Part shown: piece by piece, positions 7,234 through 45,095 of the stretch
How the letters are laid out: each line of letters starts with the position of its first letter
Position numbering within the stretch: the first letter of the stretch is position 1
DNA from: Chlorobiaceae bacterium
GTDB lineage: Bacteria; Bacteroidota; Chlorobiia; Chlorobiales; Chlorobiaceae
Length of the DNA: 64,000 nt
Assembly: GCA_013334965.1 (NCBI GenBank)
Contig: JAAXWO010000001.1
Span: 62,001 to 126,000 of the forward strand
Direction: 5' to 3'
Notes under the pieces: generated by a model
Told to the model about the DNA's origin: nothing
What the model saw: only the letters and a program-made list of their open reading frames with translations
Database searches by the model: none
Made by a program: the position numbers and the translations under genes

Positions 7234-7257
7234 GGGAGCGACGGGCTCCAGCCCGGT
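7234..7257 (+). repeat. REP-like palindrome, left arm of an inverted pair
   Basis: The element reads GGGAGC, then GACGGGC-TCCA-GCCCGGT, with an inner 5-bp stem and a 4-nt loop. The conserved GGGARC tag followed by a 7-4-7 hairpin is the architecture of the four elements inside the RAYT gene at 38.9-39.4 kb. It faces the copy at 7348. Confidence 0.65.
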
Positions 7258-35601: not shown

Positions 35602-36192
35602 GTGCTGTTGAGGGTAATGGTAAGAGAAATAGCGTCAGTTCAGACGGGATACTCTTTCAGGGTGCGTCTTGAGTCTGACTCGTCGGGCAATGTGGCTGTC
35701 ATCCAGATGAAAGACCTGCGTGATGACCATACGGTTGATTGCAACGATCTGGTGAGAGTCGATATGAAGGAGCTTAAAGAGCATCATTTTGTACGCAATG
35801 GGGATTTGGTGCTGAGGACACGAGGATTGGTTACAACATCGGCGATACTTCTTGAAGCGCCTGAGAATGTCGTTGTTTCGGCCCCTTTATTGAGAATCAG
35901 AATCAGCCAACCCGACAAGGTGTTGCCTGAGTACCTGAACTGGTACATCAATCAGCGGGAAGCTCAGGCATTCCTCGATAGCAGGGCGATAGGAACAGCA
36001 CAAAAGATGATTGGCAAGGAGGCGATAGATGATCTTGAGGTTATCCTGCCAGGCATTGAGCGGCAAAGATGTATCGTGGAAATGGCGTTATTGTCGGCTC
36101 GTGAGCAGTGCCTGCTTCAGGAGCTTGCTGAAAAACGGGGTCAGTATAGTTCAATAGTACTTATGGAGTTAGCTAAAGGAGAACAAGAATGA
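35602..36192 (+). CDS. Half-length HsdS-like protein upstream of hsdM
   Basis: About 190 residues, enough for a single target-recognition domain and one helical spacer of a type I specificity subunit. ASVQTGYSFRVR at the start, VLRTRG in the middle and the GKEAIDDLEVILPGIERQRCIVEMAL helix entry are all HsdS-like. Functional half-S subunits can dimerise to rebuild a two-domain S unit. The GTG at 35602 abuts the ribosome-binding site, so the TTG at 35608 (AGGAG 5 bases away) or ATG at 35617 is more likely. It overlaps hsdM by 4 bases (ATGA). Confidence 0.75.
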   Translation: MLLRVMVREIASVQTGYSFRVRLESDSSGNVAVIQMKDLRDDHTVDCNDLVRVDMKELKEHHFVRNGDLVLRTRGLVTTSAILLEAPENVVVSAPLLRIRISQPDKVLPEYLNWYINQREAQAFLDSRAIGTAQKMIGKEAIDDLEVILPGIERQRCIVEMALLSAREQCLLQELAEKRGQYSSIVLMELAKGEQE

Positions 36193-37757
36193 GCGGTTTA
36201 ATCGACCAGAAAAATATCAATAACGCCGCATGGTCTGCATGTGACACCTTCAGGGGGGTAGTCGATCCGGCTCAGTACAAGGACTACATCCTGGTGATGC
36301 TGTTTCTGAAATACATCTCCGATGTCTGGCAGGATCATTATGAGGAGTACCGGAAGCTGTATGGGGATGATGATGAACGTATTCGCCGAAAGCTTGAGCG
36401 CGAAAGGTTTGTCCTTCCTGTGGTTACGCTGACGGAAAAGAGTGCGGAGACAGGCGCGATTACGGTACTCGATACGTTTGAGGCCACCTATTACAGCCTT
36501 TATGAACGAAGGTCGACACCTAACATCGGTGAGCTGATCAATATCGTACTCGATCACATCGAAGAAAAAAACAAGGCCAAGCTCGAAGGGGTTTTCCGCA
36601 ATATCGATTTCAACAGCGAATCAAATCTCGGAAAAACCAAGGATCGTAACCGGCGCCTGAAGCAGTTGCTTGAGGATTTTCATAAAGCTGAACTCGATTT
36701 GCGTCCAAGTCGCGTTTCCGAAGATGTTATCGGCAATACCTACATCTACCTGATCGAACGATTCGCTTCGGATTCGGGCAAGAAGGCAGGAGAGTTCTTT
36801 ACCCCGTTCAAGGTGAGTGAACTGGTGGCAAAACTCGCAGGTCCGAAATCAGGTGATCGAATTTGTGATCCTGCCTGCGGTTCGGGTGGTTTGCTGATCA
36901 AGGCGGCAAAAGAGGTGGGTGACAGGAATTTCGCTCTCTTCGGGCAGGAGTCAAACGGAAGTACCTGGGCGCTGTGTCGCATGAATATGTTCCTGCACAG
37001 TTTCGATAGCGCCAGAATTGAGTGGTGCGATACCCTGAACAGCCCCTTACTGGTGGAGAACGACCGCCTGATGAAATTCAACTGTGTCGTTGCAAATCCG
37101 CCGTTTTCTCTCGATAAATGGGGTGCCGAACATGCCGAGGATGACCGGTATAACCGCTACTGGCGGGGTGTACCTCCGAAAAGCAAGGGTGACTGGGCGT
37201 TCATCAGCCATATGATTGAAACTGCCCTTGAAAAGGCGGGGCGCGTGGCTGTCGTTGTGCCGCATGGTGTTCTGTTCAGGGGTAGCGCAGAAGGGCGTAT
37301 CCGCCAGAAAATGATTGAGGATAACCTTCTCGATGCCGTGATCGGATTGCCGGGGAACCTGTTCCAGACAACGAATATTCCCGTGGCGATCCTCGTATTC
37401 GACCGTTCGCGTGAAAAAGGCGGTTCGCGTGAGGATTGTAGGGATGTCCTGTTTGTCGATGCGAGCCGGGAGTTTGTATCCAGCAAAAACCAGAACACGC
37501 TTTCAGACGAGCATATCGCGAAAATCATGCAGACCTTCAGGGATAGACGGGATGTCTACAGATTTGCCCATCTGGCGGATGTAGCCGAGATCAGCGAAAA
37601 CGATTTCAACCTCAATATCCCCCGTTACGTCGATACCTACGAGGAGGAAGAGGAGATCGACATCGATGCCGTACAGCGGGAGATCGAACAGCTCGAAAAA
37701 GAGCTGGTTGAAGTTCGGGCGAAAATGGCAGAGAAGCTGAAGGAGATTCAGCGATGA
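36189..37757 (+). CDS. hsdM: Type I restriction-modification methyltransferase subunit
   Basis: This 522-residue N6-adenine methyltransferase has SAM motif I DPACGSGGLL near residue 228 and the catalytic NPPF (ANPPFSLDKWG) near 300. The N-terminal HsdM helical domain begins with NAAWSACDTFRGVVDPAQYKDYILVMLFLKYISD. The C-terminal coiled-coil (EEEEIDIDAVQREIEQLEKEL) should contact HsdS. M2S1 methylates host DNA and, with HsdR, forms the restriction complex. It overlaps both neighbours by 4 bases (ATGA), indicating coupled translation. Confidence 0.96.
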   Translation: MSGLIDQKNINNAAWSACDTFRGVVDPAQYKDYILVMLFLKYISDVWQDHYEEYRKLYGDDDERIRRKLERERFVLPVVTLTEKSAETGAITVLDTFEATYYSLYERRSTPNIGELINIVLDHIEEKNKAKLEGVFRNIDFNSESNLGKTKDRNRRLKQLLEDFHKAELDLRPSRVSEDVIGNTYIYLIERFASDSGKKAGEFFTPFKVSELVAKLAGPKSGDRICDPACGSGGLLIKAAKEVGDRNFALFGQESNGSTWALCRMNMFLHSFDSARIEWCDTLNSPLLVENDRLMKFNCVVANPPFSLDKWGAEHAEDDRYNRYWRGVPPKSKGDWAFISHMIETALEKAGRVAVVVPHGVLFRGSAEGRIRQKMIEDNLLDAVIGLPGNLFQTTNIPVAILVFDRSREKGGSREDCRDVLFVDASREFVSSKNQNTLSDEHIAKIMQTFRDRRDVYRFAHLADVAEISENDFNLNIPRYVDTYEEEEEIDIDAVQREIEQLEKELVEVRAKMAEKLKEIQR

Positions 37758-38884
37758 TTGTCCCTTTAGACTGGAACGAAACAACTTTAGGCGAGTTCGT
37801 GTCTTTGCAACGAGGATATGACCTTCCGGATCATAATCGGGAAAATGGAGAAATTCCAGTTGTTGGAGGAGGCGGCCCAAATGGTTACCATTCCGAAGCA
37901 AAAGCTATTGGTCCTGGAGTTGTTATTGGTCGGAGTGGTGCAGGTTTTGGAACAGCATTCTACGTAAAAGAGAATTACTGGCCACACAATACGGGGCTAT
38001 TTGTGACCGATTTCAAGGGTAATGATCCACTATTTGTATTTCATTTTTTAAATGCATTTGATTTTTCCTCTTACAACTCGGGTGGGGCTCAGCCATCCTT
38101 AAATCGGAATTATATTTACCCCATTTCAATATCCTATCCTTTCCTCTCCGAGCAAAAAGCGATTTCCGATTTACTTTCTACTTGGGATGAGGCTATCGAG
38201 AACACTGAACGACTGATTCGGGCGAAGGAACAGCGGTTTAATGGACTGTTGTGTGAGTTAATGTCAGAACAACGAAATAGACAGAGAGAGACGAGATGGA
38301 AAAAGGTGAGAATTGGATCATTTCTGACTGAGAGTCGGATTCCAGATCGTGTTAATGACCCCAAGAAGCGACTAAGTGTAAGGCTGCATTTGAAGGGCGT
38401 TGAGGTTCGAGAATATCGAGGAACTGAGGCTGATGGAGCAACTGCATATTTTATCCGTAAGGCAGGTCAGTTTATCTACGGTAAACAAAATGTGTTTAGA
38501 GGGGCTTTAGGCATAGTACCCCTTGAATTAGATGGCTATAGCTCAACTCAAGACATACCGACGTTCGATATAGCTGATCACGTCAATAAGAATTGGCTTC
38601 AGTTTCTCTTTTCAGATCCAAACTTTTATAAAAAATTAGAGCTATATGCGAGTGGGTCGGGTTCAAAGCGACTTCATCCGAAAGAGCTTTTCAGAGTAAC
38701 AGTTACATTGCCACCACTTGAAGCCCAGCATAAAATTAACGATACACTATCTTCAGCCCAGCACGAAATCGACCTACTGAAACAGCTTGCAGAAAAATAT
38801 AAAACCCAGAAGCGTGGTCTGATGCAGAAGATGCTGACTGGGGAGTGGCGTGTGAAGCCGGATGTGGTGAAAAGTTATGAGTGA
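37754..38884 (+). CDS. hsdS: Type I restriction-modification specificity subunit
   Basis: This is a 376-residue protein with the normal two target-recognition domains separated by conserved helices. The first conserved helix region is FLSEQKAISDLLSTWDEAIENTERLI, and the second is ALEAQHKINDTLSSAQHEIDLL-like, ending with KRGLMQKMLTGEWRVK. The recognition sequence cannot be predicted. The gene is visibly richer in A+T than hsdM and hsdR, as expected where recognition domains are exchanged horizontally. It overlaps hsdM by 4 bases and the RAYT gene by 8. Confidence 0.93.
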   Translation: MIVPLDWNETTLGEFVSLQRGYDLPDHNRENGEIPVVGGGGPNGYHSEAKAIGPGVVIGRSGAGFGTAFYVKENYWPHNTGLFVTDFKGNDPLFVFHFLNAFDFSSYNSGGAQPSLNRNYIYPISISYPFLSEQKAISDLLSTWDEAIENTERLIRAKEQRFNGLLCELMSEQRNRQRETRWKKVRIGSFLTESRIPDRVNDPKKRLSVRLHLKGVEVREYRGTEADGATAYFIRKAGQFIYGKQNVFRGALGIVPLELDGYSSTQDIPTFDIADHVNKNWLQFLFSDPNFYKKLELYASGSGSKRLHPKELFRVTVTLPPLEAQHKINDTLSSAQHEIDLLKQLAEKYKTQKRGLMQKMLTGEWRVKPDVVKSYE

Positions 38885-39587
38885 AGCACATGGGAACGCG
38901 GAGCCCCAGCTCCGCAACAAAGACGTCAACGAATGGCGATCTCGTGGGTATCTTCCTCATCGAGACTGTTTCGGGTTGTTGCAATCCATCACCTGTCGTT
39001 TAGCCGACAGCTTGCCACAAGAAAAGCTACGGCAGCTGGATGAGGAGTTGGTGAAGATGAAGGGGGATGCGGAGCTGGGGCTCCGCGTTCCCAGTGAAAA
39101 CGGTCCGGAGCTGGGGCTCCGCGTTCCCGGTAAAGACCACATTTCCAGCCTGGAAACGGAAAAGCATAAACGGATAGAAGCATGGCTTGATGCCGGAATG
39201 GGTTGCTGTGCTTTGCGTCATCCGCAGATGGCTGCTGTGATGCAAGACACCTTACTGAAATTTGATCAGGAGAAATACCACCTTTTGGCGTGGTGCATCA
39301 TGCCCAATCATCTGCATGTGCTGATTGAGCCCAAGGTTCCGTTGTCAGCAATAGTTCAGTCGTGGAAATCATTTACAGGCCGTTGGGCGATGAAATATGG
39401 TGCGGAGCTGGGGCTCCGCGCTCCCAGGTTTTGGATGCCCGATTATTGGGATCGTTATATCCGGGATGAAAAACACCTGCGGTCGGTCATTGACTATATA
39501 CACAACAACCCGGTGAAAGCAGGTCTGTGCCGGAAAGAAACTGACTGGCCCTGGAGCAGCGCATATATTTTCAATCCTGCAATATAG
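38877..39587 (+). CDS. REP-associated tyrosine transposase (RAYT) with REPs inside its frame
   Basis: The single-strand HUH transposase signature is IMPNHLHVLIEP. Family landmarks WRSRGYLPHRDC, WKSFTGRWA, PDYWDRYIRDEKHL and YIHNNPVKAGL are also present, ending WPWSSA. It is a Y1-type relative of IS200/IS605 transposases that mobilises REP palindromes. The 236-residue protein is about 40 residues longer than the core. The excess is encoded by four REP hairpins that read through in frame as AEPQLR and (A/P)ELGLR(V/A)P peptides. Its ATG overlaps the hsdS stop (ATGAGTGA), coupling it to the restriction operon. Confidence 0.92.
   Translation: MSEAHGNAEPQLRNKDVNEWRSRGYLPHRDCFGLLQSITCRLADSLPQEKLRQLDEELVKMKGDAELGLRVPSENGPELGLRVPGKDHISSLETEKHKRIEAWLDAGMGCCALRHPQMAAVMQDTLLKFDQEKYHLLAWCIMPNHLHVLIEPKVPLSAIVQSWKSFTGRWAMKYGAELGLRAPRFWMPDYWDRYIRDEKHLRSVIDYIHNNPVKAGLCRKETDWPWSSAYIFNPAI
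38892..38915 (+). repeat. RAYT-internal REP copy 1 (forward)
   Basis: GGGAAC followed by GCGGAGC-CCCA-GCTCCGC: a perfect 7-bp stem and 4-nt loop. It is translated as part of HGNAEPQLR near the RAYT N terminus. It faces copy 2, giving a REPIN-like inverted pair. Confidence 0.85.
39069..39128 (-). repeat. RAYT-internal REP copies 2 and 3 (reverse, 36-bp tandem)
   Basis: GCGGAGC-TGGG-GCTCCGC-GTTCCC at 39069-39092 recurs as CCGGAGC-TGGG-GCTCCGC-GTTCCC at 39105-39128, exactly 36 bases (12 codons) later. Both are read as ELGLRVP. They fall between two conserved RAYT segments, VKMKGD and ISSLETEKHKRIEAWL. Confidence 0.85.
39402..39425 (-). repeat. RAYT-internal REP copy 4 (reverse)
   Basis: GCGGAGC-TGGG-GCTCCGC-GCTCCC, read as AELGLRAPR, lies in the loop between WAMKYG and FWMPDYWDRYI. 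The last block has one base change (GCTCCC for GTTCCC), matching the tag at 7366. Confidence 0.85.
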
Positions 39588-39610
39588 AACCAATATAGGG
39601 GTGCGTAATT

Positions 39611-39844
39611 ATGGCAATCGGAAAGAACCAACATGTGGTGAAGCATCCGGAAGGATGGGCTGTCAAAGGGGCAGGGAATAGCAAGGCAACGAGAGTAACC
39701 CCAACACAGGCCGAAGCGATACAGATCGCACAGAATATCGCCAGAAACCAGCACTCGGATACCAAAATTCATGGCGAGAACGGCAGGATCAGGGCCGGCA
39801 ACAGCTATGGACCGGATTCCTGCCCACCAAAAGATCAAAAGTAA
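39611..39844 (+). CDS. DUF2188-domain small protein
   Basis: The 77-residue protein matches the DUF2188 pattern: HVVKHPEGWAVKGAGNSKATRVTPTQAEAI, a helix with AQNIARNQ, then KIHGENGRIRAGNSYG. Members are small, often next to defence or mobile genes, and of unknown function. It sits inside the restriction island between the RAYT and HAD genes, 11 bases before the latter. Confidence 0.85.
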   Translation: MAIGKNQHVVKHPEGWAVKGAGNSKATRVTPTQAEAIQIAQNIARNQHSDTKIHGENGRIRAGNSYGPDSCPPKDQK

Positions 39845-39855
39845 GATAAACTGTT

Positions 39856-40689
39856 ATGGGTAAGAAACTGGTGAATATGGCGATTGCCTATGATTTCGAT
39901 GGAACGTTGGCTCCGGGTAACATGCAGGAGTATGATTTTATTCCGAAACTCCGCATGAAATCGAAGGGCTTCTGGAATGATGTATCCAGCCATGCTCGGG
40001 AACAGAATGCTGATCAGATTCTGGCTTATATGCATCTGATGCTCAAAAAAGCTGAAAGCGCAGAGGTTCAAGTGAGGAAGAGTGATTTTCACAAATACGG
40101 TGAGCAGATAAAACTGTTTCCCGGAGTGGTCGAATGGTTTCAGCGTATCAATGAGTATGGAAGGGAGAAGAACATACGGGTCGAACATTACATCGTGTCG
40201 TCAGGCCTCAGGGAGATGGTTGAGGGGACTCCGATATCCAAAGAGTTTCAGGCGATCTATGCTTCCGGATTCATGTATGACCATCATGGCGTTGCCTGTT
40301 GGCCAGCACTTGCCATTAACTACACCACGAAAACCCAGTATCTCTTCCGGATCAACAAAGGCAGTTTGGACGTCTCTGACAACAGTGTCATCAATTCATA
40401 TGTGCCGCATGAACAACGCCCAGTTCCATTCGAAAACATGATTTTCATCGGTGACGGTGAAACCGATATTCCCTGCATGAGGCTGGTCAAGGATCAGGGA
40501 GGGCATTCGATTTCGGTTTATAAGTCTAATAAAAACGGAGCGAAAAAAGCCGCTGAGCAATTGCTTAACGACAAAAGGGTGACGCTCATTGCTCCTGCTG
40601 ATTATCGTGAAGGCAAGACAATTGATATGGCGGTCAAGGCGATGATCGATAAGGTTGACGCACGATCAAAGATTCTCGGGATGAAATAG
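39856..40689 (+). CDS. HAD-superfamily phosphatase in the restriction island
   Basis: HAD motif I is YDFDGTLAPG (nucleophile and acid Asp), motif II is YIVSSGLREM, a Lys in YKSNKNGAKKA fits motif III, and motif IV is IGDGETDIPCM. The 277-residue architecture resembles phosphoserine-phosphatase-type HADs. It lies between hsdS and hsdR in the same orientation, so it may be a passenger or an accessory that acts on phosphorylated ends or nucleotides. That role is inference. Confidence 0.85.
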   Translation: MGKKLVNMAIAYDFDGTLAPGNMQEYDFIPKLRMKSKGFWNDVSSHAREQNADQILAYMHLMLKKAESAEVQVRKSDFHKYGEQIKLFPGVVEWFQRINEYGREKNIRVEHYIVSSGLREMVEGTPISKEFQAIYASGFMYDHHGVACWPALAINYTTKTQYLFRINKGSLDVSDNSVINSYVPHEQRPVPFENMIFIGDGETDIPCMRLVKDQGGHSISVYKSNKNGAKKAAEQLLNDKRVTLIAPADYREGKTIDMAVKAMIDKVDARSKILGMK

Positions 40690-40702
40690 ATGCAGAATAA
40701 TT

Positions 40703-40895
40703 ATGCTTGACTTCAATATGCTCGACAAGCTCAAGCGAAGGCTTGACTCGTTCCTCCCGCTTCCTCCAGAGATGGTGTTCAATCTGCATCAATATCTTGT
40801 TCTGCGATGGACCTATAATTCGAACGACACAGAATGGAGATGTTGTCGAAGAAGGATTCAAACCATATTGGCAAGCCTTGGGAGTTAACTCATGA
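40703..40895 (+). pseudogene. Remnant of a Fic-family gene, frameshifted and internally deleted
   Basis: The 40703 frame begins MLDKLKRRLDSFLPLPPEMV and continues to LRWTYNSN, the N-terminal segment of Fic proteins that is normally followed by AIEGNTLT. After WTYNSN the match stops. The neighbouring frame then gives DVVEEGFKPYWQALGVNS and stops at 40895, overlapping the RhuM start as ATGA. This start/stop overlap suggests that the second frame is the true 3' end of an ancestral coupled gene whose middle was lost. Confidence 0.65.
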
Positions 40896-41905
40896 GCGAT
40901 TCTGAATTTTTGCTTTATCAGGCTTCCGACGGTAAGATCACCGTTGATGTCTGGTTGGAGGATGAGACTGTCTGGTTGACGCAGGCGCATTTATGCGATC
41001 TGTTCCAGAAATCGAAACCGACGATCAGTGAGCATATCAAGCACATTTTTGACGAGGGTGAACTGGTCGAAACGTCAGTTGTTCGGAATTTCCGAACAAC
41101 TGCTTCTGATGGAAAAGCCTATGACGTTCGTTACTACAATCTCGACGTGATTATTTCGGTCGGGTATCGGGTTAAATCGCATCAGGGTACCCAGTTCCGG
41201 ATTTGGGCAACCCAGCGCCTGAAAGAGTACATCGTCAAAGGTTTCGCCTTGAATGATGAGCGCTTCAAGAGCGGCAGTTCAATGAACTATTTCACGGAGT
41301 TGCAGGAGCGCATCCGCGAAATCAGGCTCTCCGAACGGTTATTCTACCAGAAAATCAAGGATATCTATGCCACCAGCATCGATTACGACCCAAAGGACGA
41401 GAAGACGATAGAGTTCTTCAAGATCGTCCAGAATAAATTGCTCTGGGCAATCAGCGAGCAGACGGCCGCGGAACTGGTGTACCGTCGAGCAAATGCGGAT
41501 TTGCCATTGATGGGCATGCAGTCGTTCGATAAAAAAGGTGTTCCGGTTCGCAAGGACGATGCGGGGATTGCCAAGAACTATCTCGATCATGATGAGATCA
41601 GACTGTTAGGGCTGCTGGTGGAGCAGTATCTGGCATTCGCTGAAGCCATGGCACAGCAGCGAACACCCATGTCGATGCAGAACTGGATTCAGCGGCTGGA
41701 TGCGATCATTCAGCTTAACGGACGTGAGCTGCTTACCCATGCAGGAAAGATCAGTCATCAACTGGCGATTGAGAAATCAAGTCGTGAGTATGAAAAATAT
41801 AGAGAGAATCAGAAGCAGCAGCAGCGTGAAGAGAGTCTGAGGGAGTTGGAAACGGATCTCAGGAAACTTAAGCCAGGTAAACAAACGGGTAAGGGAAATG
41901 AGTGA
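40892..41905 (+). CDS. RhuM-family protein
   Basis: The 337-residue protein matches the RhuM family ('virulence protein RhuM') over its full length: an N-terminal TVWLTQAHLCDLFQKSKPTISEHIKHIF helix-turn-helix-like region, then YYNLDVIISVGYRVKSHQGTQFRIWATQRLKEYI. The name comes from a Salmonella island and says little about function. These proteins often sit between hsdS and hsdR. It overlaps hsdR by 8 bases (ATGAGTGA). Confidence 0.9.
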   Translation: MSDSEFLLYQASDGKITVDVWLEDETVWLTQAHLCDLFQKSKPTISEHIKHIFDEGELVETSVVRNFRTTASDGKAYDVRYYNLDVIISVGYRVKSHQGTQFRIWATQRLKEYIVKGFALNDERFKSGSSMNYFTELQERIREIRLSERLFYQKIKDIYATSIDYDPKDEKTIEFFKIVQNKLLWAISEQTAAELVYRRANADLPLMGMQSFDKKGVPVRKDDAGIAKNYLDHDEIRLLGLLVEQYLAFAEAMAQQRTPMSMQNWIQRLDAIIQLNGRELLTHAGKISHQLAIEKSSREYEKYRENQKQQQREESLRELETDLRKLKPGKQTGKGNE

Positions 41906-44900
41906 TTTTCAGACAAATGAACAGTATCTGTCCCAGATTCCGGCTTTGCAGCTCCTGACAGGGCTGGGCTATGAATACCTTACACCGGCTGAGGCGCTCC
42001 GTGAACGGCAGCAGCGGACTTCGAATGTCTTGCTCGAGAACATCCTGCGCAGCCAGCTCAAGGAGATCAACCGTATCAGGTACAAGGGGAGTGAGTATCT
42101 CTTCAGCGAGGAGAATATCCAGTCTGCCATCCAGAAGCTGAAAAACATCAAGTACGATGGGTTGCTGAGAACCAATGAGGCGGTGTATGATCTCATTACG
42201 CTCGGAACAGCCATGGAACAGGCCATCGAGGGGGATTCCAAGAGCTTCAATCTGAACTACATCGACTGGCGCAATCCGGACCGGAACAGTTTTCATGTCA
42301 CGGTTGAGTTCAGCGTTGAGCGCTCCCGGAGCACAGAGACGACCCGGCCGGATATCGTTCTTTTCGTCAACGGCATCCCGTTTTGCGTGATCGAGTGCAA
42401 GTCTCCGACAACCGAAATCGATCAGGCGGTTTCACAGTCCATCAGAAACCAGAACGACGACTTTATCCCGAAGTTGTTCGTCTATACCCAGTTGCTTCTT
42501 GCTCTGAACAAAAATAGTTCCATGTATGCTACGACGGGAACAGCGGTCAAGTTCTGGAGTGTATGGAAAGAATTCGGAAAAGATCAGGCGGGTGTGCCGA
42601 GTAAGATGTTGACCACATTGAAGCAGAAGCCTTTGTCTGATGAACTGCGAAAGAAAATCTCGAATACCTTTCATTGCCAATTGCCTGAAGTCCAGTCTCA
42701 ACTGGTAACCCCACAGGATGAAGCCCTGTATTCGCTTTGCCGACCGGAAAGGCTTCTTGAACTGGCCTGGAAGTTTACTGTTTTTGATGGCGGATTCAGG
42801 AAAATTGCCCGGTATCAGCAGTACTTCGTCGTCAAGTCGACGTTGAACCGTGTCAAGCAATACAATAATAGCGGAACTCGCAAAGGCGGGGTTATCTGGC
42901 ATACGCAGGGGTCGGGCAAATCCCTGACCATGGTGATGCTGGCCCGCAATCTTGCCCTCGATCCCGAAATACAGAATCCCCGTATCGTTCTTGTCACAGA
43001 CCGCGACGATCTGGACCGGCAGCTTGGCAATACCTTTGCGGCCTGCGGTCTTGAAGCCAATCGTGCAACGTCGGGCAGGAACCTGCTTGAACTGGTGTCC
43101 GAAAAGAGGTCCGGTATCGTCACCACACTTATTCACAAGTTTGACAAGGCATTCTCCATCAGCAAGTACCGTGATGATTCCCCCGATATTTTCATTCTTG
43201 TTGATGAGAGCCATCGAACCCAGTTTGGTTCGTTTGCCGCCAGGATGCGCCAGATGTTCCCGCATGCCTGCTACCTTGGATTCACGGGAACTCCGTTGCT
43301 GAAGAAGGAGAAAAACAACTTCACCAGATTCGGGAAACTTGTCGAGCCCCATTATTCGATTTCACAGGCGGTTGAAGATGGTGCGGTCGTTCCGCTGCTC
43401 TATGAGGGGCGTCATGTGGAGATGACCCAGAACAAGGCTGCAGTGGATCTGTGGTTCGAGCGTCATACTCAGGGATTGACCAGAGAGCAGCAGGCGGACC
43501 TGAAACGCAAGTATGCTCGTGCTGAAATGCTGAACAAGACGGATCAGGTTATTTTCATGCGAGCTTTCGATATCAGCGAACATTTCCGCGCCAACTGGCA
43601 GGGAACGGGGTTCAAGGCCCAACTGGTTTCGCCAAACAAGGCGTCCGCGCTGAAATATCATGCCTGTCTCAACGAGATCGGGGTGGTCAGTTCCGAAGTC
43701 CTCATTTCTCCTCCGGATATGCGCGAAGGCTTTGAAGAAACCGATGATGAGCCGCGCGACGAGGTGGTGAAATTCTGGCAGAAGATGATGAAGCGCTATG
43801 GCTCCGAGGAGGAGTACACCAAGCAGCTTATCAACCAGTTCAAGCATGGCAGCGATCCGGAAATCCTGATTGTGGTCGATAAACTCCTGACCGGTTTCGA
43901 TGCGCCCCGGAATGCTGTTCTCTATTTATGCAGGGTTCTCAAGGAGCATACGCTGTTGCAGGCTATCGCACGGGTGAACCGTATTCATGAGGGAAAGGAG
44001 TTTGGCTTTATCGTCGATTATGCGAACGTGCTCGGGGAGTTGGACAAAGCCCTGACCATGTACAGTGCGTTTGAAGGGTTCGATGAAGCCGACCTTGCCG
44101 GAACCCTTACCTCCATCAACAGCGAGATCGAAAAACTGCCGACTCGGTATTCGGACCTGTGGGACCTTTTTAAAACCGTTAAAAACTCTTACGACGAGGA
44201 GGCTTATGAGCTTTTGCTTGCCGATGATGAACTGAGGGCTGAGTTTTACAGGCGACTTACCGAATTTGGCAAGAGTCTCGCTATTGCGCTCTCATCCGAG
44301 AAGTTTCTGGAGGAGACGGCTGAACAAATGCTGTCACGATATAAAACTGATCTCAGGAAGTTTCAGTCTCTCCGGGCATCCGTCCAGTTACGTTATGCCG
44401 AATCCGTTGATTACCGGGAATACGAGCCTAAAATCAGGAAGCTGCTTGATACCCACATTCAGGCTGACGAGGTGATCCAGCTCAATGAGCCGGTGAACAT
44501 TTTTGATGACCACATGTTCAATCAGGTCAAAGAGGAGCAGGGTGTATATCGTAAGGGGAAAACAACGGCTTCCCGTGCTGATACGATTGCCCATGCCACA
44601 AAAAAGGCGATAACGGAAAGAATGGATGAAGATCCTGCTTTTTACCAGAAGTTTTCCCGATTGATCCAGCAAGCCATCGAGGATTTCAGGGCAAAAAGGA
44701 TATCTGACCTGGAATATCTGCATAAAGTCGTCGATATCCGGAACAATGTTGTCGGCAAGGTTCATGACGACGTTCCCGATACCCTTGCCGGAAATGAAGA
44801 TGCCATGGCCTATTACGGAGTGTTGAAGCCCTTTCTTGAAAAGCAGGATCAGGATGCACAGGTGCTTGAGAGTGCTGCTTCCTGTATGGCAGTGGCGATA

Positions 44901-45095
44901 TGTGAGATTCTCGTGAAACACAGGAAAGTTCATTTCTGGGATGACGAAGATGCTCAGAACCAGGCTATAAACGAAATTGACGATTACCTCTACGATGAAC
45001 TGAAAATCAGCAGAGGGTTCGCCTTGTCTGTTGATGAGATGGACGAGATCATTGCCAAAGTCATGCTGGTGGCCAGGCACAGAAGTCATGGATAA
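41898..45095 (+). CDS. hsdR: Type I restriction endonuclease subunit R
   Basis: The 1065-residue protein has an N-terminal PD-(D/E)xK nuclease domain (RPDIVLFVNGIPFCVIECKS) and a superfamily 2 translocase. The latter has Walker A TQGSGKSLTM, DEAD-type box VDESHRTQFG, motif III LGFTGTPLL and motif VI-like LLQAIARVNRIHEGK. The C-terminal HsdM/S-contacting region follows. It translocates DNA in an ATP-dependent way and cuts at a distance from unmethylated sites. All motifs are intact, so restriction is probably functional. It overlaps rhuM and the YgjP-like gene by 8 bases each. Confidence 0.96.
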   Translation: MSDFQTNEQYLSQIPALQLLTGLGYEYLTPAEALRERQQRTSNVLLENILRSQLKEINRIRYKGSEYLFSEENIQSAIQKLKNIKYDGLLRTNEAVYDLITLGTAMEQAIEGDSKSFNLNYIDWRNPDRNSFHVTVEFSVERSRSTETTRPDIVLFVNGIPFCVIECKSPTTEIDQAVSQSIRNQNDDFIPKLFVYTQLLLALNKNSSMYATTGTAVKFWSVWKEFGKDQAGVPSKMLTTLKQKPLSDELRKKISNTFHCQLPEVQSQLVTPQDEALYSLCRPERLLELAWKFTVFDGGFRKIARYQQYFVVKSTLNRVKQYNNSGTRKGGVIWHTQGSGKSLTMVMLARNLALDPEIQNPRIVLVTDRDDLDRQLGNTFAACGLEANRATSGRNLLELVSEKRSGIVTTLIHKFDKAFSISKYRDDSPDIFILVDESHRTQFGSFAARMRQMFPHACYLGFTGTPLLKKEKNNFTRFGKLVEPHYSISQAVEDGAVVPLLYEGRHVEMTQNKAAVDLWFERHTQGLTREQQADLKRKYARAEMLNKTDQVIFMRAFDISEHFRANWQGTGFKAQLVSPNKASALKYHACLNEIGVVSSEVLISPPDMREGFEETDDEPRDEVVKFWQKMMKRYGSEEEYTKQLINQFKHGSDPEILIVVDKLLTGFDAPRNAVLYLCRVLKEHTLLQAIARVNRIHEGKEFGFIVDYANVLGELDKALTMYSAFEGFDEADLAGTLTSINSEIEKLPTRYSDLWDLFKTVKNSYDEEAYELLLADDELRAEFYRRLTEFGKSLAIALSSEKFLEETAEQMLSRYKTDLRKFQSLRASVQLRYAESVDYREYEPKIRKLLDTHIQADEVIQLNEPVNIFDDHMFNQVKEEQGVYRKGKTTASRADTIAHATKKAITERMDEDPAFYQKFSRLIQQAIEDFRAKRISDLEYLHKVVDIRNNVVGKVHDDVPDTLAGNEDAMAYYGVLKPFLEKQDQDAQVLESAASCMAVAICEILVKHRKVHFWDDEDAQNQAINEIDDYLYDELKISRGFALSVDEMDEIIAKVMLVARHRSHG

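Follow-up and report, generated by a model that had tools for sequence, protein, structure and literature searches.

The presence of REPs in many genomes is commonly put down to RAYTs. The RAYT gene studied here lies within the window (the whole stretch of 64,000 nucleotides that was analysed), in the 2.48 Mb, 99.7% complete genome of a member of the Chlorobiaceae, and it holds tagged hairpins inside its own reading frame. The question raised by this locus is whether these hairpins are the enzyme's REPs, kept for the structure of the DNA or RNA, or simply the codons of a peptide. We consider it probable, if by no means certain, that in a Chlorobiaceae-centred RAYT family the gene has copies of the enzyme's cognate REP hairpin among its codons, and that the hairpin is maintained for its DNA (or RNA) structure and not for the peptide alone; we infer the cognacy of RAYT and hairpin from their location and co-variation. 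One short gene would then hold both the enzyme and its presumed target, and synonymous recoding, which removes the target and leaves the protein untouched, would provide a direct test. Selection-like constraint on a REP would also become visible codon by codon, a view that extragenic copies do not offer, and the system bears on how REPs move and on what keeps a RAYT with its REPs after gene transfer.

The RAYT gene and the hairpins in its frame

As the initial annotation had proposed, the gene encodes a RAYT: the NCBIfam family NF047646 (REP_Tyr_transpos) matches it with 91.9 bits against a cut-off of 80, Pfam PF01797 matches at 2e-9, and the TnpA-REP in PDB entry 4er8 is its only solved relative by sequence (5e-11). 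Among the homologues the two HUH histidines do not vary, nor does the YxHxNP motif, and the protein thus has the Y1 HUH domain with HUH and Y...NP motifs that is expected of a RAYT/TnpA-REP. The protein shares the Y1 HUH nuclease fold with the TnpA of IS200/IS605 elements but differs from it in family, since the IS200 transposase family NF033573 scores only 22.1 bits, far under its cut-off of 55, where NF047646 fits; no tnpB was seen beside the gene. No relative was found in phage and viral collections, a search of plasmids returned distant RAYTs only (<60% identity), and Rfam gave 0 matches within 37500-41000. An AlphaFold model built from 7 sequences reached a pLDDT of 44 and a pTM of 0.31, too poor for a fold search or for placing the REP sites on surface loops.

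Table 1. The RAYT gene, its in-frame hairpins and the surrounding operon (positions in the window).
Feature	Position	Strand	Description
hsdM	36189..37757	+	TIGR00497, 1.8e-90; type I R-M operon
hsdS	37754..38884	+	Methylase_S, 5e-23; stop overlaps RAYT start (ATGAGTGA)
RAYT / TnpA-REP gene	38877..39587	+	Y1 HUH transposase, 236 aa
RAYT motifs			HUH motif NHLHVLI (H145, H147); Y207 in YIHNNP assigned by homology as catalytic Tyr
REP1	38892..38915	+	GGGAAC-GCGGAGC-CCCA-GCTCCGC; codons 6-13; N-terminal extension; peptide GNAEPQLR
REP2	39069..39092	-	Perfect 7-4-7; inverted relative to REP1; insertion in linker ahead of HUH domain; peptide AELGLRVP
REP3	39105..39128	-	36-nt tandem duplicate of REP2 unit; 6-bp stem; peptide PELGLRVP
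REP4	39402..39425	-	GGGAGC-tagged, perfect 7-4-7; loop between HUH helix and FWMPDYWDR; peptide AELGLRAP
DUF2188, HAD phosphatase, RhuM genes	39611..41905	+	Between RAYT and hsdR
hsdR	41898..45095	+	HSDR_N, SWI2_SNF2; operon of hsdM/hsdS

Four tagged 24-nt hairpins lie within the RAYT ORF, and all of them are read in frame (Table 1). The initial annotation had described four hairpins with 7-4-7 stem-loops; their number and their frame stand, as do the peptides given for them and the offset of exactly 36 nt between the second and third copies, but while the stems of REP1, REP2 and REP4 are perfect, that of REP3 carries one mismatch (CCGGAGC). In most copies the foot reads CC[TC]GGGARC. REP1 and REP2 are opposed to each other, both feet pointing outward as in a REPIN, and REP1 is inverted relative to REP2-4; all of these REPs are inside the ORF, and no tagged hairpin was found near the gene but outside it. 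Because no further in-frame ATG, GTG or TTG separates REP1 from the conserved RGYLPH core, REP1 must be translated.

A chance origin of the four hairpins in the RAYT gene is excluded. When synonymous codons were shuffled within the gene, keeping its protein and codon counts, tagged hairpins arose at a mean of 0.03 with a maximum of 2, and 0 of 5000 shuffles reached the four observed. Dinucleotide shuffling of the window likewise gives an expectation of 0.02 matches to the pattern against the 5 found, including one on the strand opposite to REP2 that overlaps it.

Insertion sites, tandem growth and copy number

A close relative of the RAYT that carries the GCGGAGC hairpin occurs in 7 of 86 family genomes (G000, G026, G047, G048, G051, G073 and G083; clade A). 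Compared with homologues that lack hairpins, REP1 extends the protein at its N-terminus, and REP2/3 is cleanly inserted ahead of the HUH domain. The clean insertions that the initial annotation had proposed to look for are thus seen at these two places and not at REP4, which sits in a native loop. Palindrome-free homologues have this loop too, at similar length, and for that reason we rejected the site-4 REP as a plain insertion. Support for the deep branches, at 43-87, is too low to order the palindrome as ancestral or as gained on a pre-existing peptide.

REP1 and REP2 recur at the identical place, phase and orientation in G000, G026, G083, G051, G073 and both copies of G047. At the place of REP2/3 there are homologous tandem in-frame units, four in G048 and about ten in G047, and this growth by units of 36 or 39 nt preserves the frame. 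The units of G047 are seen in its second RAYT copy (L011:1938-2543), where the frame continues into about ten REP units of 39 nt (AELGLRDPGKEEE) before it stops. Beyond clade A, six tandem units of 33 nt are read in frame at the REP4 site of a Cloacimonadota RAYT; their stem is a different one, but their foot is GGGAAC. A Chthoniobacteraceae RAYT has an in-frame hairpin pair at both ends of the ORF. The REP4 site has decayed in G026, G083, G051 and one G048 copy, in G083 through frame-preserving changes, and a copy at this site is therefore not essential.

Broken RAYT copies also occur. A RAYT remnant in a Spartobacteria MAG (Verrucomicrobia; L018:4939-5246) lies directly after hsdS and has kept REP1 and REP4, with a short spacer between them, and the C-terminus. 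It is an internally deleted, REPIN-like derivative and is still in frame. One RAYT copy in G048 has a deletion from REP2 to site 4. The losses in these two copies are bounded by REPs, and they fit cutting or recombination at in-gene REPs, or slippage. Another locus in G048 (L014:1546-4124) holds a RAYT interrupted in its N-terminal region by ~1.9 kb of other sequence.

A whole-genome scan of the host found the GCGGAGC hairpin in four copies, all inside the RAYT gene, with 0 extragenic copies of the gene's own class. The further copies that the initial annotation had proposed to search for are thus missing from the rest of the host genome and present in other genomes, in RAYT frames and at intergenic sites. 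In the seven clade-A genomes, 31 of the 31 copies of the class (with <=1 mismatch allowed, and three hybrid-stem matches in G083 excluded) are inside RAYT reading frames, some of which belong to broken copies. Since extragenic copies are absent from genomes with close relatives of this RAYT, REP-spreading activity is suggested to be low or none in these genomes. Perfect copies of the class are also found in G005, G009, G012 and G020, mostly at intergenic positions, and in G009, itself a member of the Chlorobiaceae, the same hairpin is dispersed between genes, with two copies forming a classical REPIN with outward feet. Because of this intergenic REPIN, we take the GCGGAGC hairpin to be a true REP class, as had been proposed. 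It is a tagged, GC-rich hairpin repeated in its genome, in four copies in the host and in dispersed REPINs in G009, but it does not have the extragenic position and high copy number by which REPs are also defined, as every host-genome copy lies within one ORF. The spacers of dispersed REPINs (G001, G005, G006, G008, G009, G011, G016 and G017) match RAYT DNA, in their best hits, over the REPs only and not between them, and we rejected an origin of these spacers from the RAYT gene.

A second class, GCCGAGC, is present in 61 of 86 genomes with up to 39 copies. The initial annotation had seen the layout of the RAYT hairpins again between genes near 7234, 7348 and 23283 of the window, and had joined them into one active REP/RAYT system; we could sustain neither proposal. 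The stems at these sites (GACGGGC.., GCCAGGC.. and GCCGGGC..) differ from those in the gene and are mostly imperfect, and they look like decayed members of the commoner GCCGAGC class.

Codon constraint and the readings it allows

If the hairpins were kept for themselves, the constraint should be seen in codons that the peptide leaves free. We scored columns with the same amino acid across four clade-A lineages, and with few independent lineages behind the test, 14 of 14 scorable codons in REP1 and REP2 were identical, against 52 of 111 elsewhere (Fisher p 6e-5). In pairs of diverged clade-A lineages there are 0 synonymous differences in 14-16 REP codons, compared to about 23-35% elsewhere. In clade B, the sister clade, the REP4 site is occupied by the other REP class, again as a perfect palindrome (GCCGAGC..GCTCGGC). 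The third stem pair is G-C in clade A and C-G in clade B, a compensated change in which the peptide is altered and the palindrome left intact. At this site 7 of 7 scorable clade B codons are frozen, against 36 of 104 elsewhere (p 9e-4), and this includes the codons of the unpaired GTTCCC foot; in several clade B genes this is the single in-gene REP, far from the start. In clade C, where the same loop peptide is encoded and there is no palindrome, the codons drift (1 of 5 identical versus 36 of 103 elsewhere). Judged from these sequences, maintenance of the hairpins at the DNA or RNA level is well supported.

These contrasts bear directly on whether the peptide is what is selected, with the palindromes a coincidence of coding for AEPQLR or AELGLRVP. 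Homologues without any palindrome do encode ELGLxVPG at the REP4 site, nearly the peptide of REP4, and for this reason the peptide at this site is no evidence in itself. The initial annotation had named such peptides without matching palindromes as the finding that would overturn the REP interpretation; they occur at REP4 only, and because the codons drift there and are frozen where the palindrome is kept, their meaning is reversed. Since synonymous shuffles never yield four hairpins, clade C has free codons for the same peptide and the identical 24-mer is intergenic in G009, selection on the peptide is refuted as a full explanation and is altogether improbable, and it may apply to the native part of the site-4 loop.

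Neutral relics offer a different account, in which REPs landed in tolerant spots of an ancestral RAYT, had no function and stayed similar through gene conversion from one copy to another. Several clade-A genes show a decaying REP4, as would be expected of such relics, and the tandem units within G047 and G048 are near-identical, as slippage or conversion predicts. The frozen codons could indeed stem from gene conversion among REP copies and not from selection. Against this, REP1 and REP2 retain every synonymous site across lineages that have changed so much elsewhere, and the lone site-4 REP of clade B is frozen too; gene conversion is a less ready explanation where a clade B gene contains a single copy, though those genomes hold extragenic copies. 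We regard neutral relics as unlikely. The main functional rival is a role in the mRNA, which we hold to be still less likely: REP1 near the start, local hairpins and a 24-bp REP1-REP2 pairing would limit RAYT translation coupled to hsdS, and the palindrome would be a by-product of RNA structure. REP1 starts 15 nt after the start codon, the region from REP1 to REP3 folds to -129 kcal/mol with long-range pairing between REPs, and the RAYT start overlaps the hsdS stop, all of which would suit such a role. A local RNA stem has no need, however, of the frozen codons and the frozen unpaired foot of the single, distant REP in clade B, and the GCGGAGC hairpin is scattered over intergenic sites in G009. 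A further reading, unlikely in our estimate, makes the REPs functional gene parts: the enzyme would act on the hairpins of its own gene, and the RAYT, edged by REPs, would be a mobile module that enters R-M or methylase genes by preference, in frame, and spreads with them without breaking the host protein. Its targets, put forward just as tentatively, would be the place behind hsdS here and, elsewhere, a DUF1156 methylase (two sites), an Eco57I-type methylase and HsdR.

In the maintained-hairpin explanation that we prefer, the RAYT would bind single-stranded hairpins in its own gene in the manner of the TnpA-REP proteins of E. coli and Stenotrophomonas, which bind a single-stranded hairpin and use a 5' tetranucleotide in recognition or cleavage (PMC8266576). 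By analogy, the GGGA part of the foot may take the role of the GTAG guide, with the GGGA-tagged strand being recognised. The REP element could sit and duplicate in the RAYT frame without killing the enzyme because it is 24 nt long, stop-free in all frames and placed at the N-terminus, in a linker and in a loop. Moving between genomes, here as a passenger on a type I R-M operon, the gene would bring its own target sites along, and retention, autoregulation or spread are candidate uses of these sites.

The principle of in-frame REPs is already known, since Quentin et al. 2018 describe REPs within tnpA-REP genes, mostly between HuH and Y, as the hallmark of subclass 2.4 (PMC6006769) and the REPs compiled by Di Nocera et al. 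2013 include some that lie within ORFs (PMC3733652). The present gene resembles subclass 2.4 in its in-frame REPs and in the variable region between HuH and Y, and differs in its foot (CTGGGARC instead of GT[AG]G), in having insertions at three places, of which two precede the HuH motif, and in that the REPs of its class exist only inside the RAYT gene in clade-A genomes. Of the residues W94, Q95 and R104 conserved in subclass 2.4, the first and last are present as W186 and R196, whereas the position of Q95 is M187. We rejected this change of a guide residue as the simple cause of the new foot, since a RAYT embedded in a DUF1156 gene in G120 keeps the Q (FWQREYFDR) with the same CTGGGARC foot. 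Like the REPtron/REPIN systems of E. coli, Pseudomonas and Stenotrophomonas, the family combines an HUH-Y1 enzyme with a tagged hairpin, inverted pairs with outward feet and one REP class per RAYT type (PMC2817692, PMC3116915, PMC8266576), but the REPs of those systems are extragenic and of high copy number, where here they are intragenic and few. Rickettsia palindromic elements (RPE; cited in PMC3733652) are also palindromic repeats read in frame within proteins, though they are found in many different genes and not, as here, in only one, the transposase itself. As far as the searched literature shows, what is new is the different foot, the insertion sites before HuH, the restriction of copies to the inside of genes, the signs of maintenance in the codons together with a compensated switch of class, and the location in a type I R-M operon.

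The type I R-M operon and RAYTs within other genes

The operon runs hsdM-hsdS-RAYT-DUF2188-HAD-RhuM-hsdR, and the overlap of hsdS and RAYT recurs in G083, G051 and G073, whose hsdS proteins are 33-40% identical to that of the window, whereas the RAYT is conserved. Because the overlap recurs while hsdS diverges widely and the RAYT does not, the comparison fits an operon that was transferred and took the RAYT with it as a passenger. A universal association of RAYTs with R-M genes was rejected, as the RAYTs of G076 and G012 adjoin genes that, on inspection of their ORFs, do not resemble R-M.

A RhuM-family gene is found repeatedly after clade A and B RAYTs (L144, L145, L146 and window 40892-41905), including at loci with no hsd genes seen in the vicinity. 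At three clade B loci (L040, L038 and L041) a full RAYT gene is adjoined by C-terminal RAYT fragments, and the fragment in L040 starts near the site-4 REP and continues in frame into an hsdS-like tail.

RAYTs of the wider family also lie in frame within ORFs of DUF1156 methylases (L130:3-3176 in G062, L050:1-3408 in G022 and L149:1438-5301, minus strand, in G120). The insertion site is common to G062 and G022 and is empty in G120, whose RAYT occupies a second site that is empty in the other two. CTGGGARC-tagged hairpins occur at the edges of these embedded RAYTs and also as REP-only in-frame inserts. A RAYT domain is likewise found in frame inside an Eco57I-type methylase ORF of 1157 aa (L131:61-3531, minus strand, in G295) and inside an HsdR-like ORF of 881 aa (L016:916-3558).
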